NCBI GenBank assembly: GCA_018672315.1 | Contig: CP076053.1 | Coordinates: forward strand, 1,289,827-1,353,826 | Direction of reading: 5' to 3' | DNA: 64,000 nucleotides | DNA from: Nocardioidaceae bacterium | GTDB lineage: Bacteria > Actinomycetota > Actinomycetes > Propionibacteriales > Nocardioidaceae | Part shown: piece after piece, positions 5,975-30,219 of the stretch | How the letters are laid out: each line of letters starts with the position of its first letter | Position numbering within the stretch: the first letter of the stretch is position 1 | Translations under genes and position numbers: made by a program | The notes under the pieces: generated by a model | Databases searched by the model: none | Seen by the model: only the letters and a program-made list of their open reading frames with translations | Told to the model about the DNA's origin: nothing

Positions 5975-6054
5975 GGGATGTGCTCCTCTCAAGCACGGGA
6001 TCGGCCGCCGAGCAAGACGTGGGCTCACCCGCTCGGCGACGAGGAGCACGGCAG

Positions 6055-6117: not shown

Positions 6118-6242
6118 TTGCGCTCACAAGTCTACGCCGCGTGACGCCACGCAACCGTTCCCGACAGAACACGGTTCGGTCTCGACACGGCCACCGGATG
6201 ATGTCGGGTTTGGGCGCGCCCCAGCCGACGCAGGAGACCGCC

Positions 6243-6824: not shown

Positions 6825-6848
6825 CACCCTGCCGCGTCCGGAGCCGCG

Positions 6849-10468: not shown

Positions 10469-10968
10469 GCGTCTCCCCTCTCCACGACCTGCTTCATGCG
10501 CTCCAGCGTCGTCCGCATGCCCTGCACGTTGGTGTTGCCCCGGGCGCGGCCCATCACGGCCCAGTACGCCTTCATCGCCAGGTTCGGCTCGATGCGGAAG
10601 TACCCGCGTACGCGCGACCCGCCCTCGGGGTGCGGCTCGATCTCGTATCCCCAGTTGTTGACGGTCACCGCGTCGGTGCCGACGGTCCACTCGAAGACCG
10701 CGGGGCCGGCGATGTCCTGGCCGGGCGGCGTGCACGCCGTGACGCGGCAGGGCGACCAGTACACGGGGCCGACCCCGTTGCGCTTCACGTGACCGGCGAA
10801 CGTCGCGCCCACCTCGGGGCCCGTGGAGCCGCGAGTCCACCTGCCCTCGAACGTCTCCGGCGAGAACTCACCGATGCGGGTGACGTCGGAGACGAGGTCC
10901 CACACCTGCTGCGGTGGCGCGTCCATGTGCACCTCGACGGTGCGGGAGTAGTCGGGCATGAGCTTCAT
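10465..10968 (-). CDS. SRPBCC family protein
   Basis: This 167-residue protein has the START/Bet v1-like (SRPBCC) pattern. An N-terminal strand (YSRTVEVHMDAPPQQVWDLVSDVTRIGEFSPET) leads into alternating strands and a long C-terminal helix (MRTTLERMKQVVE). Such proteins form a hydrophobic pocket for lipids or polycyclic ligands. In this operon it could hold or present a hydrophobic substrate, which is inference. It lies 25 bases after the acyl-CoA dehydrogenase and overlaps the carboxyltransferase start by four bases (ATGA). No catalytic residue can be assigned. Confidence 0.85.
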   Translation of the reverse strand: MKLMPDYSRTVEVHMDAPPQQVWDLVSDVTRIGEFSPETFEGRWTRGSTGPEVGATFAGHVKRNGVGPVYWSPCRVTACTPPGQDIAGPAVFEWTVGTDAVTVNNWGYEIEPHPEGGSRVRGYFRIEPNLAMKAYWAVMGRARGNTNVQGMRTTLERMKQVVERGDA

Positions 10969-10993
10969 CGCAGGTCCTCTCGGGAGCCGGTGC

Positions 10994-12160: not shown

Positions 12161-13989
12161 CGTGGTCCCTCCAGGAGGTCGGTCGGTATGTCGACATGTC
12201 GGCTGCGGGCCCACTCACCCAGCGCCTTGGCCTGCGGGTCGAACCTCGTCGAGGCGGCCACGCCCTCACCGAGCAACCCGTGGATCAGCACGTTCACGCC
12301 GCCGAGATTCGGCAGGGCGTGCACCTCGACCTCGAGCTCGGCGGCCTCGGGCAGCAGGTCGCGGACCCAGTCGGGGGTCACCGTCTCGAGGAGCCAGTCG
12401 ACCCGCGCGCTGTACACGGGCGAACCGTCATCGCTCACCCAGAGTCCGAGGTTCGCATCGCCTCCCTTGTCGCCCGACCGCGCGTGCACGAACGACCCGA
12501 GCGGCACGCGCACGGAGCCGCGCGACGGCCGGGCGTCCGGGGCAGCGGCCGGACCGGGGGTGGTCGTGGGCCGTGGATGGGCCTGGCCCCCCTGGAGCGA
12601 CGAAGGAGCGGAAGGGGTGGTTGGCCCACGGCCACCCCCGGGGAGGCCGCCCCGACGGTCGGCCGTCGCGCGGCCCCGTTCCGACCGCGGCTCACCGTGC
12701 AGCACGACCTCCTCGACCACGTCCGCGCGGTCGACGAACCCGGCACGGTGCACCCCGTACGGGCTCGCCGGTCCGGGCGGGGCCGTGACGTGGAAGCCGG
12801 GGTAGGAGGCCAGTGCCAGCTCGACGCCGGCGGAGGCGAAGGCGCGGCCGACGACCTTGTCGTCCCGGTCGGCGACGGCGCAGCGCAGACGCGCGGACGC
12901 TCCCTCCTGCGTGTCGGCGTCGGGGTGGTCGGTGCGGGCGAGGGTCCAGTCGACGCGGTGCGGGCGGCGGCCCGTCCGGTCCAGGGCCTCCTCGACCTGC
13001 GTACGCACCCAGTCGGCCTTCGCCTCGATGTCGAGGCCGGTGAGGACGAACTCGACGGTGTTGCGGAACCCCCCGAACTCGTTCACCGAGACCTTGAGCT
13101 GCTCCGGCGGGGCGTCGCCGCGGATGCCGGAGAGGCGTACGCGGTCCTCACCGTCACTCGTGACCTCGACGGTGTCGAGCAGCAGCGTCGCGTCGGGGCC
13201 GAGGTAGCGGGCGGACTGCACCTCGTAGACCAGCTGTGCGGTGACCGTGTCGACCGTGACCGCGCCGCCGGTTCCGGGGTGCTTGGTGACGACCGACGAC
13301 CCGTCGTCGTGCAGCTCGGCGAGGGGGAAGCCCAGCGGCGCCGACCGCTGGGCGGGCGTGAGGTCGAGGAAGCCGGAGAAGTTGCCCCCGGTCGCGTGGG
13401 CGCCGCACTCGAGCACGTGCCCGCAGGCCATGGCTCCGGCGATCTCGTCGAGAGCGGATCCGTCGGCGACCCAGCCGTGGGCCCACATGCCGGCGCCGAC
13501 CACGAGGCTGGCGTCGGTGACGCGGCCCGTGACCACCACGTCGGCACCGCGCGCCAGGGCTGAGGCGATGCCGGTGCCGCCGAGGTAGGCGTTCGCGGTC
13601 AGTGCTCCGTCGAAGCCGAGCTCGGCGGCACGCGGCCGCAGGTCGTCGCCGGCGACGTGGGCGATGAGCGGGTCGAGTCCGAGGCCGCCGGCGACCTCAC
13701 CGAGCCTGTCGGCGAGCCCGGCCGGGTTGAGTCCCCCGGCGTTGACGACGAGGCGCACCTGCTTCTCCAGCAGCAGCCCGAGGCAGTCCTCGGCCTGGCG
13801 TACGACCGTCAACGCGTACCCCAGGGAGGGGTCCTTCATCTGGTCGCGTCCGAGGATCAGCATGGTCAGCTCGGCGAGGTAGTCGCCGGTCAGCACGTCC
13901 AGCGGCCCGCCCTCGAGCATCTCCCGCATCGCGGAGAGACGGTCGCCGTAGAAGCCGGAGCAGTTGCCGACGAGGAGGGGGGTGGTCAC
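12157..13989 (-). CDS. Acyclic terpene utilization AtuA-like protein
   Basis: I start this protein at GTG 13989, overlapping the upstream stop by four bases, for 610 residues. The N-terminal DUF1446/AtuA domain (about residues 1-450) begins LLVGNCSGFYGDRLSAM and contains RVTDASLVVG and HATGGNFSGFLDL. A low-complexity Gly/Pro/Arg linker (about residues 460-505) leads to the small C-terminal AtuA-like domain, recognised by HARSGDKGGDANLGLWV and LPNLGGVNVLIHGLLG. In Pseudomonas, AtuA is needed for citronellol/geraniol catabolism but its reaction is unassigned. Its position between TIGR03084-like and acyl-CoA dehydrogenase genes is the main clue to the operon's pathway. Confidence 0.87.
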   Translation of the reverse strand: MTTPLLVGNCSGFYGDRLSAMREMLEGGPLDVLTGDYLAELTMLILGRDQMKDPSLGYALTVVRQAEDCLGLLLEKQVRLVVNAGGLNPAGLADRLGEVAGGLGLDPLIAHVAGDDLRPRAAELGFDGALTANAYLGGTGIASALARGADVVVTGRVTDASLVVGAGMWAHGWVADGSALDEIAGAMACGHVLECGAHATGGNFSGFLDLTPAQRSAPLGFPLAELHDDGSSVVTKHPGTGGAVTVDTVTAQLVYEVQSARYLGPDATLLLDTVEVTSDGEDRVRLSGIRGDAPPEQLKVSVNEFGGFRNTVEFVLTGLDIEAKADWVRTQVEEALDRTGRRPHRVDWTLARTDHPDADTQEGASARLRCAVADRDDKVVGRAFASAGVELALASYPGFHVTAPPGPASPYGVHRAGFVDRADVVEEVVLHGEPRSERGRATADRRGGLPGGGRGPTTPSAPSSLQGGQAHPRPTTTPGPAAAPDARPSRGSVRVPLGSFVHARSGDKGGDANLGLWVSDDGSPVYSARVDWLLETVTPDWVRDLLPEAAELEVEVHALPNLGGVNVLIHGLLGEGVAASTRFDPQAKALGEWARSRHVDIPTDLLEGPR

Positions 13990-14813
13990 GAGCGCGGCTC
14001 CCGTCCGCCCCCGGGCGGGCCCGCGAACGCCTGGGCGAGGTCGAGCCACGCGTCGGCCGCCTCTCCCACCGCCGTCAGGGCCAGGTCGGCGCGGTGCCGC
14101 CGCTGGGTGACGAGCAGGGCGAAGTCGAGGGCGGGGCCGGTGACGCGGTCGGCCGCGTCCTGCGGCGACCCAGGGCCCCAGGTCCAGGTCGAGCCGTCGG
14201 GGGCGGTCAGCTCGACACGCACCTCCCGCTCGGGCACCGGCCGGCCGGCGTTGGCGAAGGAGAAGCCCCGCGTACGCACCCCCAGGTGGCACACCTGCCG
14301 CAGACCGGGCGTGGGGTCGGCGTCCACGCCGAGGGCGTCGTACACGTCCTGTGCGTGGGCCCACGTCTCCATGCAGCGCGCCGTCGCCATCGAGGTCGGG
14401 CTCATGGGCGGGCCGAACCACGGCAGCTTCACCCCGTCCGGCACGGCGCGCAGAGCCTCGGCGAGCTCGCGGCGCGACGTACGCCACCGGTCGACCAGCT
14501 CGCTCGGGGCTGCCGCGCCACCGCCGAGGGCGGCGGCGTCGACGAACCCGTCGGGGTCGCCCATCGCCTCGAGCACGAGCGCGTCCCAGGCGGCCTTTCC
14601 GTCCTCACCCGGGCCGTCGCGATGGGCGCGTGCCGCGAGCACGGCGGCCTCGTCGGTCCAGGCGAGGTGGGCGATCGTGGCAGCGACGTCCCAGCCCTCG
14701 GCCGGGGTGGGCGTACGCCAGTCGTCCTCGGGGCGTCCTTCGAGCGCCGCGGCGAGCTGGTCGCCGAGGGTGTCGAGGTCGGTGAGCACCTGCTCGAGCC
14801 GGTCATCAGCCAT
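13986..14813 (-). CDS. TIGR03084-like (mycothiol maleylpyruvate isomerase-like) protein
   Basis: This 275-residue protein has the DinB/MDMPI-type N-terminal four-helix bundle. It opens with LDTLGDQLAAALEGRPEDDWRTPTP-like sequence, then GWDVAATIAHLAWTDEAAV, whose His would be a metal ligand. A central CMETWAHAQDVYDALG supplies two further conserved metal-binding positions. The remainder matches the TIGR03084 family, whose role is unknown although mycothiol- or metal-dependent chemistry is suspected from the fold. It overlaps the TetR stop by eight bases and the AtuA-like start by four, so it is firmly inside the operon. Confidence 0.83.
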   Translation of the reverse strand: MADDRLEQVLTDLDTLGDQLAAALEGRPEDDWRTPTPAEGWDVAATIAHLAWTDEAAVLAARAHRDGPGEDGKAAWDALVLEAMGDPDGFVDAAALGGGAAAPSELVDRWRTSRRELAEALRAVPDGVKLPWFGPPMSPTSMATARCMETWAHAQDVYDALGVDADPTPGLRQVCHLGVRTRGFSFANAGRPVPEREVRVELTAPDGSTWTWGPGSPQDAADRVTGPALDFALLVTQRRHRADLALTAVGEAADAWLDLAQAFAGPPGGGREPRS

Positions 14814-16853: not shown

Positions 16854-17948
16854 ATGGCTCGCACCGTGTCCTCCGCACGCTTCGGTCGCGCCACGGGCCG
16901 ATTCGCCGTGGCGGCCGCGCTCGCACTGCCCCTGGCGGCCACGACTGCCACGCCTGCTACCGCCGCGACCCGCACCACCCCGGCGGCCGACGAGAAGACC
17001 GCGTCCGCGCCCCGCCTCCCCTACATCGTCGGCGATGTGCTCACCGACGGCGACGCGAGCATCACTCTCGACGGCGCCCCGGTCACGCCTCTCTCTGTCA
17101 CCCGCGTCGCCACCCCCGGCGACGGCCGGAACTGGGTCGTCACCGAGCTCATGCGGTCCGAGCCGCAGGTCGACGACCTCCGCATCAGCCGGTACGTCGA
17201 GGACGGATCGCGCGTGACCCTGGCGCGCACCAACACCTTCGAGGAGGTCGGGATCTCCGACCGGAGCACCCGGCTCGCGTACGCGACGGACCTGCCGCGT
17301 CAGCGCAGCCGCGTCACCGTGATCGACAGCTACACCGGCGAGGTCCTCGCGGCACGCCGCTTTCCGCGCGCCCAGGTGCTCGACGTCGACGAGAACCAGG
17401 TGGTCCTCAGCCGGCGGGCACCGAAGGCGAGGGCACACACGTTCGCCGTGTCGTGGGACTACCGGCGCAGCACTGTCGACGTGCTGCTGCGCCGGGACAC
17501 CTACGGCGCTGACATCAACGCCGACCGCCTCACCGTCGCACGGGGCGGGCGCATCGCCAACGACGACGTGCAGGTCCGCCGACTCTCCGACCCGCGCGAC
17601 GTCGTGATCAAGAGAATCCCCTTCGGCCGCGCCCAGCTCGGCTGGAACTCCTCCGGCCGACGGTTCCTCGAGGGCTTCTCCGGTGCCAGCCTGGGGCAGA
17701 TCACCGTGCGCAGGGACCCGCAGTACACCGTCGCCAGCCGGCTCGACGGGCGTCGCACGGACAGCAGCTTCAGCCAGGCCGTCTGGGAGTCGAAGCGCCG
17801 CTACGTCACCGTCGAGTTCGACGAGGACTCCGCGCGCCTGCTCCGTTGCGACCTGCGTTCGCGCTGCACGCAGGTCACGGACTCGTTCCCGGTGGAGGCG
17901 CCGAACGGCTACGTCATCGATGAGCCGACCGTGCTCCTCGGGTCCTGA
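16854..17948 (+). CDS. Exported beta-strand-rich protein, paralog family member 2
   Basis: This 364-residue paralog of the preceding gene has a signal peptide (FAVAAALALPLAATTA, cleavage after ATPATA, about residue 37). The mature part is similar: IVGDVLTDGDASITLDG early, ISRYVEDGSRVTLART, SWDYRRSTVDVLLRR with GADINADRLTV, and the closing ARLLRCDLRSRCTQV and NGYVIDEPTVLLG. The two cysteines in LRCDLRSRC probably pair. Its stop is 17 bases before the lipoprotein gene, so the two are likely one transcript. The good spacing of GAAGGAAT before ATG 16854 supports this start. Surface or envelope location is expected; the role is unknown. Confidence 0.77.
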   Translation: MARTVSSARFGRATGRFAVAAALALPLAATTATPATAATRTTPAADEKTASAPRLPYIVGDVLTDGDASITLDGAPVTPLSVTRVATPGDGRNWVVTELMRSEPQVDDLRISRYVEDGSRVTLARTNTFEEVGISDRSTRLAYATDLPRQRSRVTVIDSYTGEVLAARRFPRAQVLDVDENQVVLSRRAPKARAHTFAVSWDYRRSTVDVLLRRDTYGADINADRLTVARGGRIANDDVQVRRLSDPRDVVIKRIPFGRAQLGWNSSGRRFLEGFSGASLGQITVRRDPQYTVASRLDGRRTDSSFSQAVWESKRRYVTVEFDEDSARLLRCDLRSRCTQVTDSFPVEAPNGYVIDEPTVLLGS

Positions 17949-17965: not shown

Positions 17966-19054
17966 GTGGCCATTGTGAACGCCCCGCGCACGGCTCGCGC
18001 TGCGGCAGCCGCGGCACTCGTGGTGCTGGCAGCGTGCCAGGCGCAGACCGGCGCCGGGTCGAGCGTGCCGACGCCCCCCGTCGAGACCACGTCGCTGCCC
18101 GACTCGGCACGCGCCTTTGCTGACGGCACCGTCTATCCCCAAGGTCCGGAGCCCCGTCTGCCGTACGCGGTCGGCAGCACGCTGCACCTCGACGGCGCCG
18201 AGGTCGACGTCGGTCAGGCCCTGAACGATCTCGCCCGCACCGGCATCCCCGGCACCCTGGTGGCGCGAGGCGATGCCGTGACGGGAGCGAGCGAGCAGGT
18301 GCTGCTGCTCGACCGCTCCGGCGCTCGACGCATCGGCACGATCGACGGGCGCACCCTGGCGGCTTCACCCACCAGCAGCCTGATCGCGTGGGCCAGCAGC
18401 TCCTGGACCTCTCGTGGGCAGGACCGGGACACGACGGTGGAAGTCGTCGACGCAGCATCCGGCGAGACCGTCGCCACCCGAGGCTTCGCCTTCGGCGAGG
18501 TGGTCGCGGTTGACGGAGACCGCGTGCTGCTCGAGGAGGGACGGGCGGACGCGCGACTGGTCTGGTGGCGACCCTCCGACGGTTCGGTCGAGCATCTGGT
18601 CGCAGGCAACTTCGCGATCGCTGACCCGGGGGCCGACCGTCTCCAGTACTACGACGCGGACTCCCAGCGTCTGACGACCTCGCTCCTGCGCGACCCCGGT
18701 CGCGTCCTCTACACCGGCGACATCGGGCTCACGTCGTGCGTGCAGGACTGGAGCGGCTCGGGTCGCGCGCTGCTGACCTACTGCGAGGTGGACAGCGCGG
18801 ACCTCGCAGCCACCCGGGTCGTCGGCACCGAGGGGCAGGCCACCGGCACGATCGAGTACCGCACCCGCGACGCCGTCTGGGAGAGCGACGACGCCTTCCT
18901 CGTCGTCCGCCTGGACGAGGAGACCGTGCAGGTGCTCCGCTGCGACCCCACGGCCTCCTGCACCGGCGCAGGCGAGGCGTACGCGGTGCGCACCTTCGAG
19001 GAGATCCCGGCGTTCGGCTACTCCGTCGCGCCCCTGGTCGAGCTCGCACGCTGA
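17966..19054 (+). CDS. Lipoprotein, distant paralog family member 3
   Basis: This 362-residue protein has a lipobox (VVLAAC, Cys 24), so it should be diacylglyceryl-anchored on the outer face of the membrane. GTG 17966 is used; GTG 17975 is an alternative. The mature sequence has the same layout as the two genes before it: RLPYAVGSTLHLDGAEV, repeated strand/turn units, VLRCDPTASC near the end in place of LRCDLRSRC, and a final FGYSVAPLVEL. Four extra cysteines (TSCVQDW, LTYCEVD and the terminal pair) are consistent with disulfides. It is probably co-transcribed with the gene at 16854, suggesting a soluble and an anchored member acting together. Confidence 0.77.
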   Translation: MAIVNAPRTARAAAAAALVVLAACQAQTGAGSSVPTPPVETTSLPDSARAFADGTVYPQGPEPRLPYAVGSTLHLDGAEVDVGQALNDLARTGIPGTLVARGDAVTGASEQVLLLDRSGARRIGTIDGRTLAASPTSSLIAWASSSWTSRGQDRDTTVEVVDAASGETVATRGFAFGEVVAVDGDRVLLEEGRADARLVWWRPSDGSVEHLVAGNFAIADPGADRLQYYDADSQRLTTSLLRDPGRVLYTGDIGLTSCVQDWSGSGRALLTYCEVDSADLAATRVVGTEGQATGTIEYRTRDAVWESDDAFLVVRLDEETVQVLRCDPTASCTGAGEAYAVRTFEEIPAFGYSVAPLVELAR

Positions 19055-19262: not shown

Positions 19263-19288
19263 GGCGGGTCACCGGGAGGTGGCCCGCC
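19263..19288 (-). terminator. Hairpin overlapping the end of the ABC permease gene
   Basis: GGCGGGTCACC (19263-19273), loop GGGA, and GGTGGCCCGCC (19278-19288) pair at 10 of 11 positions, with one G-U. The stop codon of the minus-strand permease lies within the arm. There is no T tract. Confidence 0.5.
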
Positions 19289-20144
19289 TGTACTGCATCC
19301 GGGCCAGCGGCACGAACACCGCGAGGATGATGACGATCCAGATCAGGGTGTAGAGCTCGGGGTTCGCCAGCGACCACGGCAGGTCCTCCACACGCAGTCC
19401 CGCGGGGTCCGGGTTCCCGAAGCGGTCACGGGCGGCCTGGGTGATCGAGGAGACCGGGTTCCACTCCGCGATGGTGCGCAGGAAGCTCGGCAGTCCGGCC
19501 AGGGGGACGAACGTGTTGGCGATGAAGGTGACCGGGAAGATCACCACGAAGCTGACCTGCTGGATCACCTCGGGGCTCGGGGCCAGCATGCCGACGTAGG
19601 CCATGATCCAGCTGAACGCGTACGCGAAGAGCAGCAGCAGCCCGAAGCCGATCACCGCGTCGAGCACCCCGTTGCGGATGCGCCATCCGACCAGGAGTCC
19701 GGTCAGGCTCATCACCGCCAGCAGGATGACGTTGTTGAGCACGTCGGCCAACGTGCGGCCCGCGAGCACCGCTGACGGCGACATCGGCAGCGTGCGCAGA
19801 CGGTCGATGACGCCCGACTGGATGTCCTGGGCCAACGCCGCGCCCGTGGTCGTCGAGCCGAAGATGACGTTCTGCGCGAAGATGCCGGCGATGAGGAACT
19901 CGCGGTAGCCCGCGCCCCCGCCGGAGGGGTCGATCGCGCCGCCGAAGACGTAGGCGAACAGCAGGATGAACATGATCGGCGCGACCGTGGTGCCGACGAG
20001 GATCTCCGGCACCCGCTTGATCTTGATCAGGTTGCGCTTGGCCACCGTCGCCGAGTCGACGAAGGCGCCCCGCCACCCGGCGAGCTGCTGCGGTGTCAGG
20101 TCGAGCCGGCTGCCCCCGCGGGACCGCACCGTCTGCTCGCTCAT
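19269..20144 (-). CDS. ABC-2 type transporter permease, DrrB-like
   Basis: This 291-residue membrane protein has about six transmembrane segments, for example VGTTVAPIMFILLFAYVFGG, LLAVMSLTGLLVGW, AVIGFGLLLLFAYAFSWIMAYVG and LYTLIWIVIILAVFVPLA. The ABC-2 signature region includes LPMSPSAVLAGRTLADVLNN and the NTFVPLAGLPSFLRTIAEWNPVS segment typical of DrrB-type exporters. The start overlaps the ATP-binding gene stop by four bases. With its partner it would export a hydrophobic compound or lipid; daunorubicin-resistance naming reflects family only. Confidence 0.9.
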   Translation of the reverse strand: MSEQTVRSRGGSRLDLTPQQLAGWRGAFVDSATVAKRNLIKIKRVPEILVGTTVAPIMFILLFAYVFGGAIDPSGGGAGYREFLIAGIFAQNVIFGSTTTGAALAQDIQSGVIDRLRTLPMSPSAVLAGRTLADVLNNVILLAVMSLTGLLVGWRIRNGVLDAVIGFGLLLLFAYAFSWIMAYVGMLAPSPEVIQQVSFVVIFPVTFIANTFVPLAGLPSFLRTIAEWNPVSSITQAARDRFGNPDPAGLRVEDLPWSLANPELYTLIWIVIILAVFVPLARMQYRRATSR

Positions 20145-21118
20145 GCGGGGACCTCCTGGTCGTCCTGGTCGGCCTCGGCGGTCGACCGCCCGGTCAGGCT
20201 GAGGAACACGTCGTCGAGCGTCGGACGGAGCAGGCCGACCTCGTCCAGGGCCACATCGGCGTCGTCGAGCTCGCGCAGCGCGCGCGTCAGGGTGCCGGCG
20301 CCGCCCTCGACGGGCGCCCGCAGCGTACGTCTCTCGGCGTCCACCACGACCTCGCCCACGGCGTACGTCGCCAGCACCGACCGCGTCTGCTCCACCTGGT
20401 CGGGCCGGCCGACGACGATCTCGATGCGCTCACCGCCGACCTCGCTCTTCAGCTCGTCGGCGGTGCCCTCCGCGATCGCACGGCCGGCGTCGATGACGAG
20501 GATCGAGTCGGCGAGCTGGTCGGCCTCCTCGAGGTACTGCGTCGTCAGGAACACCGTCGTGCCCCCGCCGACGAGGTCGCGCACGACGTCCCACATCTCG
20601 GTGCGGCTGCGCGGGTCCAGGCCGGTGGTCGGCTCGTCCAGGAAGATCACCGGCGGCTGGGCCACGATCGCGCCGGCCAGGTCGAGCCGGCGGCGCATGC
20701 CGCCGGAGTAGCCCTTGGCCGGCCGGTCGGCGGCGTCGGTCAGCGAGAACTGCTCCAGCAGCTCGCGCGCCCGGGCCCGCGCCGTGTCACGCCCCAGGTG
20801 GTAGAGCCGACCGACCATCTCGAGGTTCTCGAAGCCCGTCAGGTACTCGTCGACGGCCGCGTACTGCCCCGACACCCCGATCTTGAGCCGCACCCCGACG
20901 GGGTCGCGCACCACGTCGATGCCGGAGACCTCGGCGTGTCCCGAGTCCGGCTTGATGAGGGTCGTCAGCACCTTCACCGCCGTCGACTTGCCCGCACCGT
21001 TGGGGCCCAGCACACCCAGGACGGAGCCCCGGGGCACCTCCAGGTCGAGCCCGTCGAGAGCCCGTAACGAGCCGTAGGTCTTCACCAGTCCGTGCGCGCG
21101 CACGGCCATCTCGTCCAT
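20141..21118 (-). CDS. ABC transporter ATP-binding protein, DrrA-like
   Basis: This 325-residue ATPase has Walker A GPNGAGKST (38-46), signature YSGGMRRRLDLA, Walker B VIFLDEPTTGLD, and the switch His replaced by Gln in FLTTQYLEEADQLADSI, as is usual for DrrA-type proteins. The C-terminal 100 residues (after about 220) are the family-specific tail ending LRPTLDDVFLSLTGR, characteristic of the drug-resistance ABC subfamily. It energises the overlapping permease. The gene starts 64 bases after the sortase gene on the same strand, so read-through from the sortase cluster is possible. Confidence 0.93.
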   Translation of the reverse strand: MDEMAVRAHGLVKTYGSLRALDGLDLEVPRGSVLGVLGPNGAGKSTAVKVLTTLIKPDSGHAEVSGIDVVRDPVGVRLKIGVSGQYAAVDEYLTGFENLEMVGRLYHLGRDTARARARELLEQFSLTDAADRPAKGYSGGMRRRLDLAGAIVAQPPVIFLDEPTTGLDPRSRTEMWDVVRDLVGGGTTVFLTTQYLEEADQLADSILVIDAGRAIAEGTADELKSEVGGERIEIVVGRPDQVEQTRSVLATYAVGEVVVDAERRTLRAPVEGGAGTLTRALRELDDADVALDEVGLLRPTLDDVFLSLTGRSTAEADQDDQEVPA

Positions 21119-21182: not shown

Positions 21183-21890
21183 TCAGCCCCGCCGCACCGG
21201 CTTCGCCATGACGACGACGTTGGACTCCCAGTCGCTGCCGTTCCAGTCCTCGCAGGTGATCAGCACCAGCCGGCCCCGACCGCGGTCCTGGGCGAAGATC
21301 TGCTCGTTGCGCTCGGCCAGCTCCGCCTTGGACCACGTCCGCACCGAGGTCACCCGGTAGCGCGCCATCGCGCCGTCGTGGAACGTCTTCACGCGGTCTC
21401 CGCGGGTCAGCTGCTCGAGGTCGTCCATCACGCCCCCGCCGTCGTGCACGGAGTGACCGGTGAGGACCGTCTGCCCCCGACGTGCGGCCACGGGCGAGGA
21501 GCGCTCCCACCATCCGACCGCGGAGACGTCACCGGGCGGGTCCAGCACACCGTCGGGAGAGACCTCGATCGGCAGCACCCGGGCCTTCAGGCTCAGAGCC
21601 GGGATCGTGAGTCCCGTCGGGGGCGCCGCCTTGCGCAGAGCCGTGCGCTCCGGCCCGTCGGCGATGCGTACGGCCGCGGTGCGGGAGCTTCCTGCGTCGT
21701 CGGCACCGTCGTCACCCAGACCGAACAGCCCTGTGCCGATCGCGACCATGCCGGCCCCGAGCACGACGAGACCCGCGACGGCGCCGCGGAACGCCCCGCG
21801 CCCCGCTCGACGCGCAGCGTCGCTTCCGCCTCCCCGCGACGCACGCGAGGCGGTGTGCTCGGCCACGTGACGACCGCCCTGACGACCCAT
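21183..21890 (-). CDS. Class F sortase (first copy)
   Basis: I start at ATG 21890, overlapping the substrate gene stop by one base (235 residues). The protein has a cytoplasmic basic N-terminus, one membrane helix (AVAGLVVLGAGMVAIGTGLFGL, in part, about 38-58), and an extracellular sortase barrel. The catalytic His is in TVLTGHSVHDGGGV (H146) and the Cys in LVLITCEDWNG (C213). The third sortase residue, Arg, is expected between the Cys and the final strand (SNVVVMA) but is absent; the only later Arg residues are at the extreme C-terminus. The enzyme should link a cleaved surface protein to the cell envelope, most plausibly the product of the adjacent upstream gene. Confidence 0.88.
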   Translation of the reverse strand: MGRQGGRHVAEHTASRASRGGGSDAARRAGRGAFRGAVAGLVVLGAGMVAIGTGLFGLGDDGADDAGSSRTAAVRIADGPERTALRKAAPPTGLTIPALSLKARVLPIEVSPDGVLDPPGDVSAVGWWERSSPVAARRGQTVLTGHSVHDGGGVMDDLEQLTRGDRVKTFHDGAMARYRVTSVRTWSKAELAERNEQIFAQDRGRGRLVLITCEDWNGSDWESNVVVMAKPVRRG

Positions 21891-23275
21891 CAGACGCGCT
21901 GCCTCCGCAGACCGCGCGCCCGACCGAGACCAGCGAGACCGGCCGCGCCGGCCAGGGCGGTGAGACCGCCCCACAGCCAGGCACCGTCGACGGGACCGGA
22001 GGCGGCGACGTCACCGGCGCTGACGGCGGTGGGCAGCTCGGGCACGTCGGCCGGCGGCGCCGGGGCGGCCGGCTCCTGCGGTGCCACGCGCGCGTTCGGG
22101 CCGCAGCCCACCATGCCGATCTGCACGGCCGCGAGGCTGTCGGGACCACCGAACGCGGCGGCGGCGGGCAGCAGGCGCAGGTCCAGGGCCGTCACCTCGA
22201 TGCGATCCTGGGAGGGCTGCTCCTGCTTGTTGAGCACGACCTCGAGCACGTTGTCCTCGAGCGGCGCGAGCTGACCCTGCACCTGGTCGAGGACGGCGTC
22301 GACGACCTGCTCCTGGACGGCGTCGGTCAGCACCGTCAGCTGCTCCGCCTGGCCCTGGAGGGCGTTCTGCAGATTGGTGCGCAACCCGGCGAACACGGCG
22401 TCGGTGACGCCGCCGAGGTCGGTGACCAGCCGCGTGTTCGGCGCGGGGTCGACCGGGAGGTCCAGCAGGGTCACCTCGCCCGCGGGTCCACCGGCCAGCG
22501 TGACCTCGGCGTCCGTCAGGGTCGCGGCGCCCTCGGCCGCGCCCGGCTCGGCAGCGCAGATCGCCTCGACGGCACCGAAGGAGGCGGTGAGGCCGAGGTC
22601 GCCCAGCTGCGACTCGGCCGCGTCGACCACACCCTGCAGGGGACCGGTGATCTGGTCGAGCACCTCGTCGAGGGGCATCGTGACCGGGTCGAGCGCGTCG
22701 TCGACGGTGTCACCGACCTCGTCGAGCGCCCCGCCACCGTCCTCGACCCCCGTGTCGCCGCCCTGGGTCGGGTCCTCCAGGGAGCCACCGACGTCGCCCA
22801 GCGAGCCGAGGTCGAGGTCACCCAGCACCGACGTCACGTCGGCCAGGTCGAGATCGTTCAGGTCCAGGGAGCCCAGCCCGAGGTCGACGTTGTCGCCCGG
22901 CTCGAGGCAGCCGGTCTCGCCGATCTCGACGACCGACCCCCCGTCGCCGGCGACACCGGCGCACGCGGCCGAGAGACCGTCGCGGTTCTCGATGCGGGTC
23001 GTCGCGTCCTGGGCGAGCACGCCGACGGCGGCCAGCGACTGGTCGCCGAGCACGCTCAGCGGCGGGTTCGCCTGACCGGTCTTGGTCTCACGCTCGCCGT
23101 CGTTGGTCACCTGCACGGCGCCGGCGTCGACGGTCTGGGTGCCGGCGATCGTGGCGGTGAGCGCCGAGGCGTCGGCCCGGGCGACCACGTCCGCCGCGCT
23201 CGCGGACACCGCGGACAGCAGCGTCAGGACGGCGGCGCCGGCGATGGCGAGGCTGGGGTGGCGCAGCTTCTTCAC
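21890..23275 (-). CDS. Cell-wall-anchored surface protein, probable sortase F substrate (first copy)
   Basis: This 461-residue protein has a signal peptide (LAIAGAAVLTLLSAVSASA). A domain with paired cysteines follows (LSAACAGVAGDGG, GETGCLEPGD), then an Asp/Leu/Gly-rich middle (about 130-250), then a second conserved domain from ICAAEPGAAEGAATLTDAEV to VQIGMVGCGPNARV. The C-terminus carries ELPTAVSAG (414-421 for LPTAVSAG), a spacer, a hydrophobic helix and RARGLRRQRV. That is the order of a sorting signal, but with PTAV in place of LPxTG. A paralog with the same layout lies at 24103. It resembles the actinobacterial choice-of-anchor proteins that sit beside class F sortases; the ligand is unknown. 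Confidence 0.82.
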   Translation of the reverse strand: MKKLRHPSLAIAGAAVLTLLSAVSASAADVVARADASALTATIAGTQTVDAGAVQVTNDGERETKTGQANPPLSVLGDQSLAAVGVLAQDATTRIENRDGLSAACAGVAGDGGSVVEIGETGCLEPGDNVDLGLGSLDLNDLDLADVTSVLGDLDLGSLGDVGGSLEDPTQGGDTGVEDGGGALDEVGDTVDDALDPVTMPLDEVLDQITGPLQGVVDAAESQLGDLGLTASFGAVEAICAAEPGAAEGAATLTDAEVTLAGGPAGEVTLLDLPVDPAPNTRLVTDLGGVTDAVFAGLRTNLQNALQGQAEQLTVLTDAVQEQVVDAVLDQVQGQLAPLEDNVLEVVLNKQEQPSQDRIEVTALDLRLLPAAAAFGGPDSLAAVQIGMVGCGPNARVAPQEPAAPAPPADVPELPTAVSAGDVAASGPVDGAWLWGGLTALAGAAGLAGLGRARGLRRQRV

Positions 23276-23342
23276 GAGAGATCTCCCGAGTCGTCAGTCG
23301 ACCCGCGTCCGTCAGGGCGCGGGCAGGCGAAGGCCGTGCGCT

Positions 23343-23367
23343 CCCACGCACGACCGGTACGGACCAC
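23343..23367. other. Intergenic hairpin between the two sortase units
   Basis: Within the 123-base gap (23276-23398) CGTGCG...CGCACG pair around a short CTCCCA loop. The gap may hold the terminator of the upstream pair and the promoter of the downstream pair. I could not place -35 and -10 boxes with confidence. Confidence 0.3.
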
Positions 23368-23398
23368 GGTGTCATGGACTGCCAAGACACGCGACCCC

Positions 23399-24106
23399 TC
23401 AGACGGGATCGGCGGTAACGACGACGTTGGACTCCCAGTCCGACCCGTTCCAGTCCTCACAGGTGACGAGGACCAGCCGGTCGGGGTCACGGTCCTGACC
23501 GAAGATCTCCAGAGCCCGCTCTGCGAGCTCCGCCTTGCTCCAGACCTCGACGTCCGCGACGCGGTAGCGCGCGAGCGCACCCTCGCTGAAGACCCGTACC
23601 CGGTCACCGGTCTCGAGCTGCTCGAGGTCGTCCATGACGCCGCCACCGTCGTGCACCGAGTGGCCCGTGAGCACGGTCTGTCCGGACTCCACCCCCAGCG
23701 GGGCCGAGCGCTGCCACCAGCCGACCAGCGAGACGTCGGAGGGCGGGTCGAGTACCCCGTCGGGTGAGACCTCCACGGGGACCACGCGGGCCTTCATGCC
23801 GAGCGCGGGCACCGTGATGCCCGTGGGTGGCGCGGCCTCGCCCACCGGCGTACGTCGTCCGATGCGGCTCGCGTCGCCCTGAGCCGGGGACGGCGATGCC
23901 GCCGCGACGGCATCGGAGGACGACGTCGGTGACGCCGGTGTCGCCGGTGTCGCCAACCCGGGCGGAGCGCTGTCGCGGGTCCCGTCGGACCACACGTCGT
24001 GCGCGGCCGCGGTCGTGCCGTACACCGTCATCGCCAGCCCGGCGGGCAGCAGCACCAGGCCGACCGTCCGGGCGAGGCGACGTGACGGCGGACGGGCCGG
24101 GCTCAT
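23399..24106 (-). CDS. Class F sortase (second copy)
   Basis: This 235-residue paralog of the sortase at 21183 has a membrane helix near residues 12-30 (ARTVGLVLLPAGLAMTVYG), a Ser/Thr/Pro/Ala-rich stalk (45-80), and then the catalytic barrel. H149 is in VLTGHSVHDGGG and C216 in LVTCEDWNGSDWESNVVV. No Arg follows the Cys at all, because the protein ends TADPV, so the usual third catalytic residue is not where expected. The barrel is very close to the first copy while the stalk differs completely. The start overlaps the second substrate stop by four bases, pairing enzyme and substrate. Confidence 0.88.
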   Translation of the reverse strand: MSPARPPSRRLARTVGLVLLPAGLAMTVYGTTAAAHDVWSDGTRDSAPPGLATPATPASPTSSSDAVAAASPSPAQGDASRIGRRTPVGEAAPPTGITVPALGMKARVVPVEVSPDGVLDPPSDVSLVGWWQRSAPLGVESGQTVLTGHSVHDGGGVMDDLEQLETGDRVRVFSEGALARYRVADVEVWSKAELAERALEIFGQDRDPDRLVLVTCEDWNGSDWESNVVVTADPV

Positions 24107-25698
24107 CGGCCGGCGGCGAGCTGGTCCCGGCGGCGGAGTCGCGCCAGCAGGCCCGCGGCCCCCGCGGCCAGCGCGAGGAGGACGGCAGCGGCTCCGGTCA
24201 CCGGGCCCGAGGTCGGCACGGTGCCGACGCCCGCGTCGACGGCGGTCGGCACGTCACCGGGTCCGCCCTGCGGCGCACCCGGGTCGGTGGGGTCGGTGGG
24301 GTCGCTCGGGGTCCCCGGCGTCTGCGGGTCCGTCGGGCCCTCGGGCTCCTCGGGCTCCTCGACCACGGGCGCGCCCGCACGCTCGTTCGGCCCGCACGCG
24401 ACGGTGCCGATGGTGACCGCGGCCAGGTTGCTCGGACCACCGAGGGCAGCCGCCGCCGGCAGCACCTCCGCCGACAGGGCGGTCACCTCGAGCGCGCCCG
24501 ACTCGGGCGTGGTCTGACGGTTGAGGGTCAGCCGCAGCACGTTCTCGCTCAGCGGCGCCAGCTGCGGGGCGACCTGGGCGAGCACGGTGTCGACGATCTG
24601 CGCCTGCAGGGCATCGGTGAGGAGGGTCAGGTCGGCGGCGACGCCGCCGAGGGAGTTCTCGAGGTCGGTCCGCAGTCCGTCCAGCAGGTCGGTGACGACC
24701 TCGTCGAGGTCGACGACGACATCGGTGTTCGGAGCGGGCAGCACCGGCAGGTCGACCAGCGTCAGCTCCCCGGCGGGGCCCCCTGCCAGCACGACGCCCG
24801 CATCGGTCAGCGTGCTCGCGCCGTCCGCGCGGGTGCCGTCGGCGGTGCAGCTCGCCTCGACCGCCCGGAGCCTGAGGCCGAGGCCCAGCTCCGGCAGCGA
24901 GGCCTCCAGCTGGTCGACCACGGCCTGCACGGGCGTGGTGACCTGGTCGAGCACCGCCTGGAGCGGATCGGTGACCGGGTCGAGGACCCCGTCGACCACG
25001 GAATCGACGACGCCGTCGACCACGTCGTCCACGACACCGCCGAGCCCGCCGCCGAGGTCACCGACCGCACCGCCCGTCACGTCGTCGAGGGTTCCGCCGC
25101 CGGGCGTCGGGGTGTTGCCCAGGTTGCCGAGCAGGTCGCCGAGCACGTCGGTCAGCAGGGAGTCGACGGTGTCGCTCACGTCGCTGATCTGCAGGGCGGT
25201 GAGGTCGAGGCTGGTCAGCAGGCCGAGCACGTCGGCTCCGGGCTCGATGCAGCCCGCGTCGCCGATCCCGATGACCGAGGCGCCTTCCCCGGCCACCCCG
25301 GCGCACGCGGCGGAGAGGGCCCTGTTGCTGTCCACCTCGGCCAGCGCGTCCTGCACCAGCAGCGAGACCGGCAGGATCCCCTGCGCGCCCAGCACGTCGA
25401 GCGGAGGGAGCACCTGGCCCGTCACCTCCTCGCCGGAGCCGGAGTCGCGCGCCGAGGTCGTCCCCGTGCTGACCAGCGGGGTGCCCGCCAGCGTGATCCC
25501 GAGGGCCGAGGCGTCGGCCTGGGCGAGACCCCGGCTCCGGTCCGAACCCCCCGACCCGTCCGTGGTGGCCGCCTGCACCGGCAGGGCCATCGCCAGCAGC
25601 GTGGCCGTGCTCATGGCGGCGATCCCAGCCTTCACCGCACGGACACGTCGGTCCTTCGGTGCGCGGTCGATCTCGTCCTCGCGGCGGCGCAGGCTCAT
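24103..25698 (-). CDS. Cell-wall-anchored surface protein, probable sortase F substrate (second copy)
   Basis: This 531-residue paralog of the protein at 21890 has a charged N-terminus (LRRREDEIDRAPKDRRVR) before its signal segment (AGIAAMSTATLLAMALPVQA). Shared landmarks are LSAACAGVAGEG and GDAGCIEPGADV, a Val/Asp/Gly-rich middle with near-repeats of DPVTDPLQAVLDQVTTPVQ, and the C-terminal domain up to VTIGTVACGPNERA. A Pro/Glu/Asp/Thr-rich stalk (about 435-480) then precedes VPTAVDAG (483-490), a hydrophobic helix and RLRRRDQ. The stalk and signal differ from copy one, suggesting separate display heights. It is first in the two-pair array. Confidence 0.82.
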   Translation of the reverse strand: MSLRRREDEIDRAPKDRRVRAVKAGIAAMSTATLLAMALPVQAATTDGSGGSDRSRGLAQADASALGITLAGTPLVSTGTTSARDSGSGEEVTGQVLPPLDVLGAQGILPVSLLVQDALAEVDSNRALSAACAGVAGEGASVIGIGDAGCIEPGADVLGLLTSLDLTALQISDVSDTVDSLLTDVLGDLLGNLGNTPTPGGGTLDDVTGGAVGDLGGGLGGVVDDVVDGVVDSVVDGVLDPVTDPLQAVLDQVTTPVQAVVDQLEASLPELGLGLRLRAVEASCTADGTRADGASTLTDAGVVLAGGPAGELTLVDLPVLPAPNTDVVVDLDEVVTDLLDGLRTDLENSLGGVAADLTLLTDALQAQIVDTVLAQVAPQLAPLSENVLRLTLNRQTTPESGALEVTALSAEVLPAAAALGGPSNLAAVTIGTVACGPNERAGAPVVEEPEEPEGPTDPQTPGTPSDPTDPTDPGAPQGGPGDVPTAVDAGVGTVPTSGPVTGAAAVLLALAAGAAGLLARLRRRDQLAAGR

Positions 25699-26858: not shown

Positions 26859-28208
26859 TCAGGCCGCCGAGGCGCGTACGCGCGTCTCACCGTCGACGTC
26901 CTCGGGGACGAGCGGCTGACCCGTGCCGGGCGCGGTCGGGCCTGCCACGGTCTCCTTCTTGGCGCTGCCCGGCAGTGCGAGCCGCGCGATCTTCTTGAAG
27001 ACCGAGCCGAGCTGGCTGAAGATGCCGCCGGTGTTGTACTGCAGGCCGTACTTCTCGCACAGCTCCTGGATCTCCGGGGCGATCTCGGCGTAGCGCCGTG
27101 CCGGCATGTCCGGGAACAGGTGGTGCTCGATCTGGAACGACAGGTTGCCGCTCATCATGTGCAGCAGCGGGCCGCCCTCGAAGTTCGCGGAGCCGAGGAT
27201 CTGGCGGAAGTACCAGTGGCCGCGGGTCTCGTCCTCGGTCTCGGCCTCGGTGAAGGTCTCGACACCGGCCGGGAAGTGGCCGCAGAAGATGATGTTGTAC
27301 GCCCACACGTTGCGCACCAGGTTGGCGGTCGCGTTGCCGACGAACGTCAGCGGTGCGAACGGCCCGGTGAGCAGCGGGAAGAGCACGTAGTCCTTCAGTG
27401 CCTGCTTCTTGACCTTGCGCATGATGCCCGCGTGGAGCGGCTTGTTCTGCTCGATCGAGCGCGTGCCGTTCACGATGTTCTCGACCTCGAGGTCGTGCAG
27501 GGCGACGCCCCACTCGAAGAAGACCATGAGCAGGAACGCGTACACCGGGTTGCCCAGATAGTACGGGTGCCACGGCTGCTCCTCGTCCATCCGGAGGATG
27601 CCGTAGCCGATGTCGCGGTCCTTGCCGAGGATGTTGGTGAAGGTGTGGTGGATGTAGTTGTGGCTGTACTTCCACTGCTCACCGGGGCAGACGTTGTCCC
27701 AGTCGAACATCTTCGAGTTCAGGGCCGGGTCGCCCATCCAGTCGTACTGGCCGTGCATGACGTTGTGGCCGATCTCCATGTTGTCGAGGATCTTGGAGAC
27801 CGACAGCGACGCGACGGCCAGCGGCCAGAACGGCGGCAGGTAGAACAGGGCGCGCCCGGCGACCTCGAAGCCGCGCTGGTACTTCACGACCTTGCGGATG
27901 TACGCCGCGTCGGTCTCGCCGAGGTCGTCCATGACGCGCTTGCGGATGGCCTCGACCTCGGCGCCGAACTCCTCGACCTGGCGCGGCGTGAGGCCGTAGC
28001 GGCCCGCGACCGTCGTGGGGTCGACGGTGTCCATGTCGATGACACGGCCGGCGGCGACCTGCTCGGTCTCGGTCGCGTCGGGGGCCGAGGGGGTGCCCGA
28101 GGTCGAGCCCTCGGGGAGCTCGGTGGTGGCGAGCGGACCCTTGAGGTCGCCCTTGCCGGTGGGGGCCTTGCTGCGGACCGGCTTGCTGAGGGGGTTGGTG
28201 ATGCTCAT
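26859..28208 (-). CDS. Membrane fatty acid/acyl-CoA desaturase, DesA3-like
   Basis: This 449-residue integral membrane diiron desaturase should introduce a cis double bond (delta-9 by analogy with mycobacterial DesA3) into acyl-CoA. All three histidine boxes are present: GHNVMHGQ (H148, H152), HNYIHHTF (H183, H187, H188) and SFQIEHHLFPDMP near residue 370. Hydrophobic segments flank them (LFYLPPFWPLAVASLSV, PVYAFLLMVFFEWGVAL). A Pro/Thr-rich N-terminal extension of about 60 residues precedes the domain. It lies 49 bases downstream of the reductase gene that would feed it electrons, in a two-gene operon divergent from a FabR-like repressor. Confidence 0.93.
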   Translation of the reverse strand: MSITNPLSKPVRSKAPTGKGDLKGPLATTELPEGSTSGTPSAPDATETEQVAAGRVIDMDTVDPTTVAGRYGLTPRQVEEFGAEVEAIRKRVMDDLGETDAAYIRKVVKYQRGFEVAGRALFYLPPFWPLAVASLSVSKILDNMEIGHNVMHGQYDWMGDPALNSKMFDWDNVCPGEQWKYSHNYIHHTFTNILGKDRDIGYGILRMDEEQPWHPYYLGNPVYAFLLMVFFEWGVALHDLEVENIVNGTRSIEQNKPLHAGIMRKVKKQALKDYVLFPLLTGPFAPLTFVGNATANLVRNVWAYNIIFCGHFPAGVETFTEAETEDETRGHWYFRQILGSANFEGGPLLHMMSGNLSFQIEHHLFPDMPARRYAEIAPEIQELCEKYGLQYNTGGIFSQLGSVFKKIARLALPGSAKKETVAGPTAPGTGQPLVPEDVDGETRVRASAA

Positions 28209-28257
28209 GCGTGCCTCCTGATGGTGGCTGATGGCTGAGGTGGTGGGGTCGGCCCGG

Positions 28258-29397
28258 TCAGAGCTGGACCTGGCAGGAGCCGACGGGCTGGGAGATGCAG
28301 ATGCGGATGTCCTCGTCCGGCGCGGCCGAGGTCTCACCGGAGACGACGTCGCGGACGGTGCCGCTGGACTTCGTGGCGACGCAGCTGAAGCAGATGCCCA
28401 TGCGGCACCCGTACTGCGGGGAGAGGCCGAGGGCCTCGGCCTGCTCGAGCAGGGTCGCGCCGGTGTTCTCGCCCTCCGCGCCCGGGGCGCCGGAGGACTG
28501 GGAGAAGGAGACCGTGCCCTCGGCGTCGGCGGTGTCGAGGACGGGGGTCTTGAAGTACTCGACGGCGAGCAGCGGCTCGCCACCCCGGTCCGCAGGCGTG
28601 CCGTCGACCGTGAGGTCGTCGTACGCCTCCTGCACGAGCTCGATCATGGCCGCCGGTCCGCACGCCCAGGCGCGGACGCTGCGGTGGTCGGGCACGAGGG
28701 CCTCGAGCCGCTCGGCGGTGAACAGCTCGCCGTGCACCAGGTGCACGTCGACGCCGTTGTCGGCGGCGCTGATCGCGGCGAGCTCGTCGGCCGCGATCTG
28801 GTGGTCCGGGCTCTGTGCGAAGTGCACGAAGCTGACGCGACCGGGGTAGCGCTGGCGCAGCAGCGTACGAACCATCGACAGGGCCGGCGTGATGCCGGAG
28901 CCGCCGGTGACCATCACCAGGCGCATCGGCACCGGGTCGCCCCGGTCCGGGGTGACGGTGAAGTCGCCCTGCGCCTGCGACAGGTGCACGATCTCGCCCG
29001 GCATGGCGTCATGCACCAGGTGCTTGGACACCGTGCCCTCGGGGTTGGCGCGCACCGTGATGGTGAAGCGCTCCCCGGGGCCGGACTCGGCGCTGGAGAC
29101 GGAGAACGCGCGGGTCGTACGACGGGCGCCGCCGACCCCTCTGCCGATCTCGACGCCGAGCTGCACGTGCTGGCCGGCGCGGTGACCGCGCCAGGTGGAG
29201 GTGGGCTGGAGCGTGATGGTCGCGACGGGGGCCGGGTCGTCGAGAGCGTGCGTCTCACGCTCGATCGAGACGATCCGGGCGCGCACCTCGTGCGCGGCCC
29301 ACATCGGGTTGATCTGCTCCAGGTAGCGGTCGACGCCATGGGGCGCGGTGAGCGCCGCGGCGGCCCTGGACCGCAGCAGGGTCTGAGCGATGCTCAT
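28258..29397 (-). CDS. Ferredoxin reductase-type electron donor for the desaturase
   Basis: This 379-residue modular oxidoreductase has an FAD domain (RTTRAFSVSSAE), an NAD(P)H domain (VMVTGGSGITPALSMVRTL and WACGPAAMIELV), and a C-terminal plant-type [2Fe-2S] domain with YGCRMGICFSCV and the fourth Cys in ICISQP. It matches the oxidoreductase partner of DesA3 in mycobacteria (Rv3230c type), passing electrons from NADPH through FAD and the cluster to the desaturase. Gene order reductase then desaturase agrees. The promoter region carries a GTGAAC-N4-GTACAC element probably bound by the divergent regulator. Confidence 0.92.
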   Translation of the reverse strand: MSIAQTLLRSRAAAALTAPHGVDRYLEQINPMWAAHEVRARIVSIERETHALDDPAPVATITLQPTSTWRGHRAGQHVQLGVEIGRGVGGARRTTRAFSVSSAESGPGERFTITVRANPEGTVSKHLVHDAMPGEIVHLSQAQGDFTVTPDRGDPVPMRLVMVTGGSGITPALSMVRTLLRQRYPGRVSFVHFAQSPDHQIAADELAAISAADNGVDVHLVHGELFTAERLEALVPDHRSVRAWACGPAAMIELVQEAYDDLTVDGTPADRGGEPLLAVEYFKTPVLDTADAEGTVSFSQSSGAPGAEGENTGATLLEQAEALGLSPQYGCRMGICFSCVATKSSGTVRDVVSGETSAAPDEDIRICISQPVGSCQVQL

Positions 29398-29439
29398 GGT
29401 GGCCTGCCTTTCGTGGAGGGGGGCCAGACATCTTATTGA

Positions 29440-29455
29440 GTGAACGCCTGTACAC
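29440..29455. promoter_or_regulatory. Candidate FabR/DesT-type operator, site 1
   Basis: GTGAAC-GCCT-GTACAC is an imperfect inverted repeat 43 bases upstream of the reductase ATG. Its complement contains TACAGGCGTTC (29442-29452). It lies between a possible -35 (CTTCAA on plus, 29456-29461) and an AT-rich -10-like segment (29430-29435) of the minus-strand promoter, with non-ideal spacing. Confidence 0.5.
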
Positions 29456-29531
29456 CTTCAACGATAGCGTGGCCGCCCGGTCACGCGTCAAACCCTTGTC
29501 GGACTTTCTCCGCGACGCACCTCACAAGCGC

Positions 29532-29542
29532 TACAGGTGTTC
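29532..29542. promoter_or_regulatory. Candidate FabR/DesT-type operator, site 2
   Basis: TACAGGTGTTC at 29532-29542 repeats the core of site 1 in inverted orientation with one change. It sits upstream of the regulator's own -10-like TACGAT, where binding would block that promoter. Confidence 0.45.
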
Positions 29543-29568
29543 TGTGAATGACGCTGGTCTGGTGGTCT

Positions 29569-29574
29569 TACGAT
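29569..29574 (+). promoter_or_regulatory. -10-like box giving a leaderless regulator transcript
   Basis: TACGAT ends six bases before GTG 29581. Transcription would begin at about the start codon, consistent with the absence of any ribosome binding site. Leaderless starts are common in actinobacteria; the -35 is not evident. Confidence 0.4.
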
Positions 29575-29580
29575 GTGTAG

Positions 29581-30219
29581 GTGTCCGACCCGTCCGCGCC
29601 TGCCGAGGGCATCACCCGCGCTGAGCGCAAGCAGCGCACGCGGGACGCCTTGATGGCAGCGGCCCTGGACCTGCTCGAGCACGAGAGCTTCAGCTCCCTG
29701 TCGCTGCGACGCCTGGCCAAGGAGGTCGGCATCGTGCCGACCGCCTTCTACCGGCACTTCGCCAGCGTCGACGAGCTCGGCCTCGCGCTGGTCGACGAGT
29801 CGTTCGCCGCCGTCCGCGAGATGGTGCGGGCCGTGCGCCGCGAGGATCCACCGGTCGAGGAGATCCTCGACCGCTCCGTCGCGGTCGTCGCGGAGTTCTC
29901 GCGGACGCAGCGTCCCCACTTCCGTTTCATCGGCCGCGAGATGTACGGCGGGATCGCGGAGATCCGCGAGGCCATCAGCCGCGGCCTCGACCAGTTCGAG
30001 CGGGAGCTCTCCACCGACCTCGCCCGCATGGAGCCGTTGCGCCGGTGGTCCGGGGCCGACCTGGCGCTGCTGTCGAACCTGATGGTGCAGCTGATGGTCC
30101 ACACCGCCGGCGAGCTGATCAACTCACCCGCGGAGCGCGAGGCCGAGATCATGCGACGTGCCCGCAAGCAGATGGGCATGATCGTCGTCGGGGTCGTCGG
30201 CTGGAAGCCGCAGGTCTGA
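29581..30219 (+). CDS. TetR-family repressor, FabR-like
   Basis: This 212-residue regulator's DNA-binding half closely follows E. coli FabR: R.RTRDALMAAALDLLEHESFSSLSLRRLAKE, then PTAFYRHFASVDELGLALVDES. FabR and Pseudomonas DesT repress unsaturated fatty acid genes and sense acyl-CoA or acyl-ACP composition. Here it is divergent from the desaturase/reductase operon, which is the same arrangement as desT-desCB. The GTG start has no ribosome binding site and lies just after a -10-like box, suggesting a leaderless message. Effector specificity is inferred from the family, not seen. Confidence 0.88.
   Translation: MSDPSAPAEGITRAERKQRTRDALMAAALDLLEHESFSSLSLRRLAKEVGIVPTAFYRHFASVDELGLALVDESFAAVREMVRAVRREDPPVEEILDRSVAVVAEFSRTQRPHFRFIGREMYGGIAEIREAISRGLDQFERELSTDLARMEPLRRWSGADLALLSNLMVQLMVHTAGELINSPAEREAEIMRRARKQMGMIVVGVVGWKPQV

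Follow-up and report, generated by a model that had tools for sequence, protein, structure and literature searches.

A tandemly duplicated class F-like sortase/substrate module with a predicted PTxVxAG sorting signal in a Nocardioidaceae genome

We analysed a window of 64,000 nucleotides from a Nocardioidaceae bacterium (GenBank assembly GCA_018672315.1, contig CP076053.1, positions 1,289,827 to 1,353,826), whose genome is a single contig of 3.6 Mb, and focused on four adjacent genes encoding two sortases and two exported proteins at window positions 21183–25698. These genes very probably form a duplicated surface-display module, in which a class F-like sortase encoded by an overlapping gene processes the PTxVxAG tail of an exported substrate and joins the substrate to peptidoglycan. 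A dedicated display system with an unusual recognition sequence had been proposed in a first-pass annotation of the window, and the proposal is well supported by the conservation of the motif in relatives and by its linkage to sortase genes.

All four open reading frames (ORFs) were found where the first-pass annotation had placed them, on the minus strand in the order substrate B, sortase B, substrate A and sortase A, and only the start of sortase A was revised. Substrate B (24103..25698, 531 residues) is an exported protein with a signal peptide, a body with a conserved Cys, a Pro-rich stalk and a C-terminal sorting signal. Its stop codon is overlapped by the start codon of sortase B (23399..24106, 235 residues, with an N-terminal hydrophobic anchor) as ATGA. 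Substrate A (21890..23275, 461 residues, GTG start) is a paralogue of substrate B, and sortase A follows at 21183..21890. The start of sortase A is most likely the ATG at 21890 and not the GTG at 21974: this ATG overlaps the stop codon of substrate A by one base (TGATG), has GGAGG upstream and yields a protein of 235 residues, equal in length to sortase B. A scan for promoters and terminators found nothing. Pfam and NCBIfam searches with the substrate body gave no convincing family, and its AlphaFold2 (AF2) model, built from two sequences, was poor (mean predicted local distance difference test (pLDDT) score 40.7).

Both substrates have the architecture of a sorting signal, namely a motif, then a hydrophobic helix, then a basic tail, as read directly from the two C-termini and in agreement with the earlier description. 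In substrate B, VPTAVDAG (residues 483–490; 24229..24252, minus strand) is followed by 12 residues, a hydrophobic stretch (24142–24192) and an Arg-rich end; in substrate A, LPTAVSAG (residues 414–421; 22013..22036, minus strand) is followed by 10 residues, a hydrophobic stretch (21923–21982) and an Arg-rich end, with the helix bounds set by eye in both. No LPxTG-type pentapeptide occurs in the window tails, where [VL]PTAV[DS]AG stands in its place; aligned in the LPxTG register, A-V-D-A-G keeps the last positions and has Val at the place of Pro. When the own genome was searched with a tail profile, the two window proteins matched (E 2.1e-10 and 5.3e-9) and were the only motif-bearing matches; the next one (E 0.0026) covered profile positions 13–45 only, without the motif. 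The motif as first proposed, PTAV[SD]AG, is real and conserved in relatives, but the wider consensus PTx[VI]x[AS]G fits better, and by sequence comparison we regard it as a variant form of the GVDTG-type signal that accompanies class F sortases (see below).

The motif recurs beside related sortases. Among 26 named loci of Nocardioides, Kribbella and Nocardioidaceae metagenome-assembled genomes, collected with sortase queries alone, 24 have the motif in the form P[TNS]x[VI]xAG, in a total of 31 tails and at 25–75 residues from the C-terminus. The exceptions, L027 and L039, have window-type sortases, and APTNEASTG stands before the neighbour's helix. Searching with the whole of substrate B gave matches in 51 of 197 family genomes, own genome counted; this genome sample overlaps the named Nocardioidaceae records, as L184 and L024 share a sortase end and tails. 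In other family genomes, 29 loci with a substrate B homologue were read: each has a sortase ORF beside the homologue, and in 28 PTx[VI]x[AS]G persists while the rest of the tail varies (the remaining one reads PPAVVDSG). An alignment of 12 substrates likewise shows no change at the motif's P, T and G within a tail that is otherwise divergent.

A tail profile (A2) built from 17 tails and run on the 197 whole family genomes returned 79 matches at E 0.001, which were counted as motif-covering if they began at profile positions 1–3; later starts cover mainly the helix and arginines. Among the sortase matches listed (profile A3), of which the first 128 were used, a related sortase lay within 2.5 kb of 52 of the 59 motif-covering matches and of none of the 20 helix-only matches. 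As to the seven unlinked motif matches, two (L224 and L226) lie beside a sortase outside the matches used, one (L227) has a listed sortase match 4.8 kb away, with the sortase ORF extending up to the tail gene, three (L221–L223, described below) have no sortase in the stretch read, and one (L225) is a chance match in a multi-helix protein. The profile was derived from sortase-adjacent tails, some of them from sampled genomes, and is thus not fully independent; nevertheless, its scoring ignores gene position. Furthermore, PTx[VI]x[AS]G was counted in the fetched loci, which are enriched in sortases: across 1162 coding-like ORFs without mutual overlap (385,919 residues), 62 occurrences lie in a tail ahead of a C-terminal helix and two lie elsewhere. 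This distribution indicates that the motif is not due to chance. The enrichment beside sortases that the first-pass annotation had suggested looking for was thus observed, with the motif beside most of the related sortases examined, and the motif was almost absent elsewhere.

Both sortases matched PF04203 (E 6.6e-19 and 2.4e-19; 68.3 and 69.7 bits, above the Pfam gathering score of 26.6). Their best-scoring NCBIfam sortase model was that of class F, NF033748 (E 6.2e-21 and 2.2e-21), followed at a distance by TIGR01076 (E 8.8e-7 and 1e-8); the class E model NF033747 gave 21.7 bits for sortase B, against a cut-off of 160, and no match was listed for sortase A. The curated NF033748 cut-off of 166 bits was missed (74.6 and 76.1 bits). 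This limit is strict: among 296 genomes of the phylum, 176 had a match at E 0.001 and 36 had one that exceeded the cut-off. A quick tree built from 174 sortases put the window pair inside a branch of 72 sequences (Shimodaira–Hasegawa-like approximate likelihood ratio test (SH-aLRT) 93), apart from canonical class F. Members of this branch have a shorter gap between the Cys and the last-strand Asn, with 10 residues separating the two in 68 of 72, as against 12 or 13 in 93 of the 102 other sequences. The earlier label of plain class F therefore had to be qualified: class F is the best-scoring class, but the curated cut-off is missed and the branch is separate, and the sequences place the window sortases in a class F-like branch with a shortened loop.

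His149 and Cys216 are invariant in all 23 aligned sequences, and Asn227, which is conserved in at least 90% of them, lies near the start of the last strand, a position from which it probably occupies the place of the catalytic Arg. A few relatives (L164 and L243) show an Arg two residues before this Asn position. In the AF2 model of sortase B the catalytic domain is confident (residues 91–235, block pLDDT 78–97), and the listed Foldseek and VIA structure matches are all sortases, the best with Z 16.2 and a root-mean-square deviation of 2.8 over 130 residues. The model is about equally similar to solved class A, C and E sortases (Z 14–16). Sequence searches of solved structures also reached distant sortases; the alignments shown end at or just past the Cys, so the Arg is not placed by them.

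The two sortases share 74% identity across 151 catalytic residues and diverge at their N-termini, while the substrates share 48% identity and diverge in their stalk and signal regions, in line with the earlier observation that barrels are conserved between the copies and stalks and signal regions are not. In quick trees, the two sortases were sisters (SH-aLRT 99), as were the two substrates (SH-aLRT 98). Since both pairs are sisters, the tandem arrangement, recognised as a duplication from the start, most likely consists of sister copies of one two-gene module that was duplicated as a unit. A different arrangement was seen in genome G365 (L228, 3355–7196), where two related sortases lie 1.8 kb apart, with one PTSIPAG substrate seen and a different ORF between them, which we take to resemble a short-chain dehydrogenase.

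A wider survey covered 100 stretches around NF033748 matches across the phylum, the window and the 26 named loci. In these 127 sources, 130 sortase ORFs were seen, and for 100 of them a neighbouring ORF on the same strand encoded a C-terminal helix followed by a basic end (104 such ORFs, a few clearly spurious). The loose pattern P.{1,5}[VIM].[TAS]G was present in 84 of the 104 adjacent tail ORFs versus 12 of 89 other tail ORFs of the same loci, and nine of these 12 were, by our reading, sortase-associated themselves (second neighbours or overlaps). Eleven of the 89 control tails were removed before motifs were counted (these nine and two without the motif that were caught by the exclusion pattern), and controls and tails were then thinned for similarity. 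De novo motif discovery yielded two patterns: VPT[AE]V[DE]AG came from the window-type tails, and P-x-[GT]-[GAR]-[VI]-x-[TA]-G-x-G-G from those of the other class F neighbours. In five-fold held-out scoring, with the threshold set at the score reached by 1% of shuffled tails, 20 of 22 window-type tails passed versus none of 61 controls, and 53 of 71 tails of the other type versus three of 61 controls; these values supersede the in-sample figures of 23/23 and 65/71 (two and three of 61 controls). The wider signal is carried by unrelated bodies, including DUF4397 and ice-binding domains, as would be expected of a sorting signal.

We dropped the notion of a wholly new signal when the NCBIfam model NF058571, "GVDTG sorting domain", was found on class F neighbours: six of seven canonical class F neighbours matched it at 18–28 bits, below the cut-off of 29. 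The model matched none of three PTxVxAG proteins of relatives and none of 12 window-type substrates (the window pair and 10 homologues), and no match was listed for either window substrate (E up to 1); a search of the own genome listed three places, none in the window. Weak, sub-threshold matches were given by three PTxVxAG tails of relatives (G298, G404 and G483); they begin at model position 6 or 7, consistent with a V-x-A-G core common to both signals. By this comparison, PTxVxAG is best regarded as an uncatalogued variant of an already modelled kind of signal. Elsewhere in the own genome (G000:C1:894186-894620; L011, L137), the gene of a canonical class F-type sortase overlaps one for a DUF4397 protein that has the tail PAQGTGVDTGGG, of the GVDTG type.

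These observations suggest the following course for the window module. The signal peptide would export the substrate, and the C-terminal helix and arginines would hold it in the membrane; the class F-like sortase, encoded by the gene that follows with an overlap, would recognise P-T-x-[VI]-x-[AS]-G, cut it with Cys216 and His149, and join the new C-terminus to a peptidoglycan precursor. We infer that the window sortases are active enzymes. Attachment to peptidoglycan is likely, and cleavage between [AS] and G is the favoured position, held with somewhat less assurance. More broadly, we lean, a little more cautiously still, towards a common specificity in which the Arg-less class F-type sortases of Actinomycetota would read P-x-x-[VI]-x-[TAS]-G, with Val or Ile at P3, the upstream Pro kept and the cut before Gly. 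In the window branch this specificity would have narrowed to PT-x-[VI]-x-[AS]-G, alongside a shortening of the beta7-beta8 loop, and the resulting pair of enzyme and signal would be orthogonal to LPxTG and LAxTG.

Several observations weigh against the display module as proposed. Linkage is weaker from the sortase side: 13 of the 20 sortase loci L182–L201 have a motif-bearing neighbour, four (L188, L189, L193 and L196) have none even in wider stretches, two (L190 and L194, like L027 and L039) adjoin a helix-tailed protein with APTNEASTG in place of PTxVxAG, and one (L201) is cut by a contig end. The neighbour of the outlying sortase L164 is without the motif, and 30 of the 130 class F-type sortases of the wider survey have no adjacent tail ORF under our filter. 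Furthermore, three motif tails have no sortase in the approximately 9 kb read around them (L221, 3055–4290, PTAVDAG; L222, 3730–4521, PTRVDAG; L223, 4868–5509, PTRVHAG); the proteins are possible substrates acted on in trans. The first of these belongs to genome G322, which also holds a distant related sortase without a motif neighbour (L188/L230); with six sortase matches in this genome, such a pairing in trans is only a lead. In Actinoplanes missouriensis, deletion of all four class F genes is reported to have given no phenotype (PMC13251363). Finally, gene linkage does not prove cleavage.

The first-pass annotation had each sortase serving its neighbour. Strict private pairing is possible, but we do not assume it, since in some relatives a lone sortase accompanies two or three motif-bearing proteins: two in seven of the 26 named loci, and three in L227 (G346, 3670–12000), where they are paralogous exported proteins whose tails read TPTVVHAG or APTVVHAG (a 1226-residue ORF of this locus ends in a Pro/Lys-rich C-terminal extension). 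Both window tails fit one consensus, and the G322 tail and distant sortase would fit action in trans. Either window sortase may act on either substrate. We give even chances to a shared specificity, in which both sortases process both substrates and the duplication provides dosage or redundancy instead of two private channels. The module was nevertheless duplicated whole and stayed paired, which private pairing would explain too, and the two motifs are not identical, the first residue and one x position being L and S in one and V and D in the other.

The remaining explanations depart further from the display module. Pilus-like polymerisation, with the sortases linking substrates together before or instead of wall anchoring, would suit two large paralogous substrates with stalks, and both the best Foldseek match (2xwg) and the best sequence match are class C (pilus) sortases; we consider it improbable, as the homologous modules examined usually have one substrate per sortase and class A and E structures equal the class C score in a second aligner. 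Slightly less probable again is a tail that serves as a mere membrane anchor with a conserved linker, beside sortases that have become inactive through loss of the Arg. The tail by itself would indeed keep the protein in the membrane, no conserved Arg follows the Cys in the 23 aligned sortases (a point that also counts against the display module), and some related sortases lack a motif neighbour. Against this stand the invariant His and Cys, an Arg-to-Asn change reported for actinobacterial class F (PMC6998099), and the preservation of a short motif, tied to sortase genes, within a variable tail. The divergence of the motif from LPxTG could also mean that some other protease or modifying enzyme, of exosortase or rhombosortase type, acts on PTxVxAG, while the neighbouring sortase does something else. 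The close tie between motif-covering tails and this sortase branch, absent from helix-only tails among the sortase matches listed, makes this the most remote of the explanations considered.

Other genes of the window were also inspected. A DrrA-like ATP-binding cassette (ABC) ATPase and an ABC-2 permease (19269–21118, minus strand) start approximately 65 bases beyond the end of sortase A, share its strand and possibly belong to the same operon. Two adjacent exported proteins on the plus strand (16854–17948 and 17966–19054) are similar near their starts (LPYIVGD.. and LPYAVGS..), have no Pfam match and are possibly paralogues. A fatty acid desaturase and a ferredoxin/flavin adenine dinucleotide oxidoreductase (minus strand) and then a TetR regulator (plus strand) occupy 26859–30219, and the product of 12157–14487 (minus strand) has AtuA and AtuA ferredoxin-like domains (acyclic terpene utilisation family).

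Our literature search found no description of a PTxVxAG or GVDTG signal, although subscription papers could hold a class F substrate motif; hits to "GVDTG" were, judged by title, not about sortases. As far as these searches reached, published work has yet to settle the recognition sequence of actinobacterial class F sortases. The 2026 mBio study on Actinoplanes (PMC13251363) describes two class F-adjacent proteins that were set aside for want of a pentapeptide motif, and notes that they may be substrates. The interest of the PTxVxAG variant lies mainly in making this question directly testable, as a defined signal with a matched enzyme branch would allow class F specificity to be probed with short peptides. 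Annotators could furthermore tell which exported proteins of Nocardioides, Kribbella and their relatives are probably wall-anchored, and the pair could provide a ligation tool orthogonal to LPxTG.

Compared with known systems, the window sortases share with class F of Actinomycetota (NF033748) the His and Cys, the N-terminal anchor and an Asn near the domain end, the last in keeping with the Arg-to-Asn replacement reported for actinobacterial class F (PMC6998099), but differ in their separate branch, sub-threshold scores and shorter Cys–Asn spacing. SrtF of Cutibacterium acnes is reported to read LPXTG (PMC13257024), in contrast to the PTxVxAG of the window substrates. Class E SrtE1 of Streptomyces is likewise an actinobacterial sortase with a non-canonical signal, LAXTG, in which Ala is reported to stand where Pro normally does (PMC5148588); the window sortases would instead have Val or Ile at P3, lack the conserved Arg and, for sortase B, score far below the class E cut-off. 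The closest likeness of the signal is to the GVDTG sorting domain (NF058571), with which it shares a C-terminal V-x-[TA]-G core, a helix, a basic end and a place beside class F sortases, while differing in keeping PT before the core and in lacking the G-x-G-G that follows it there.

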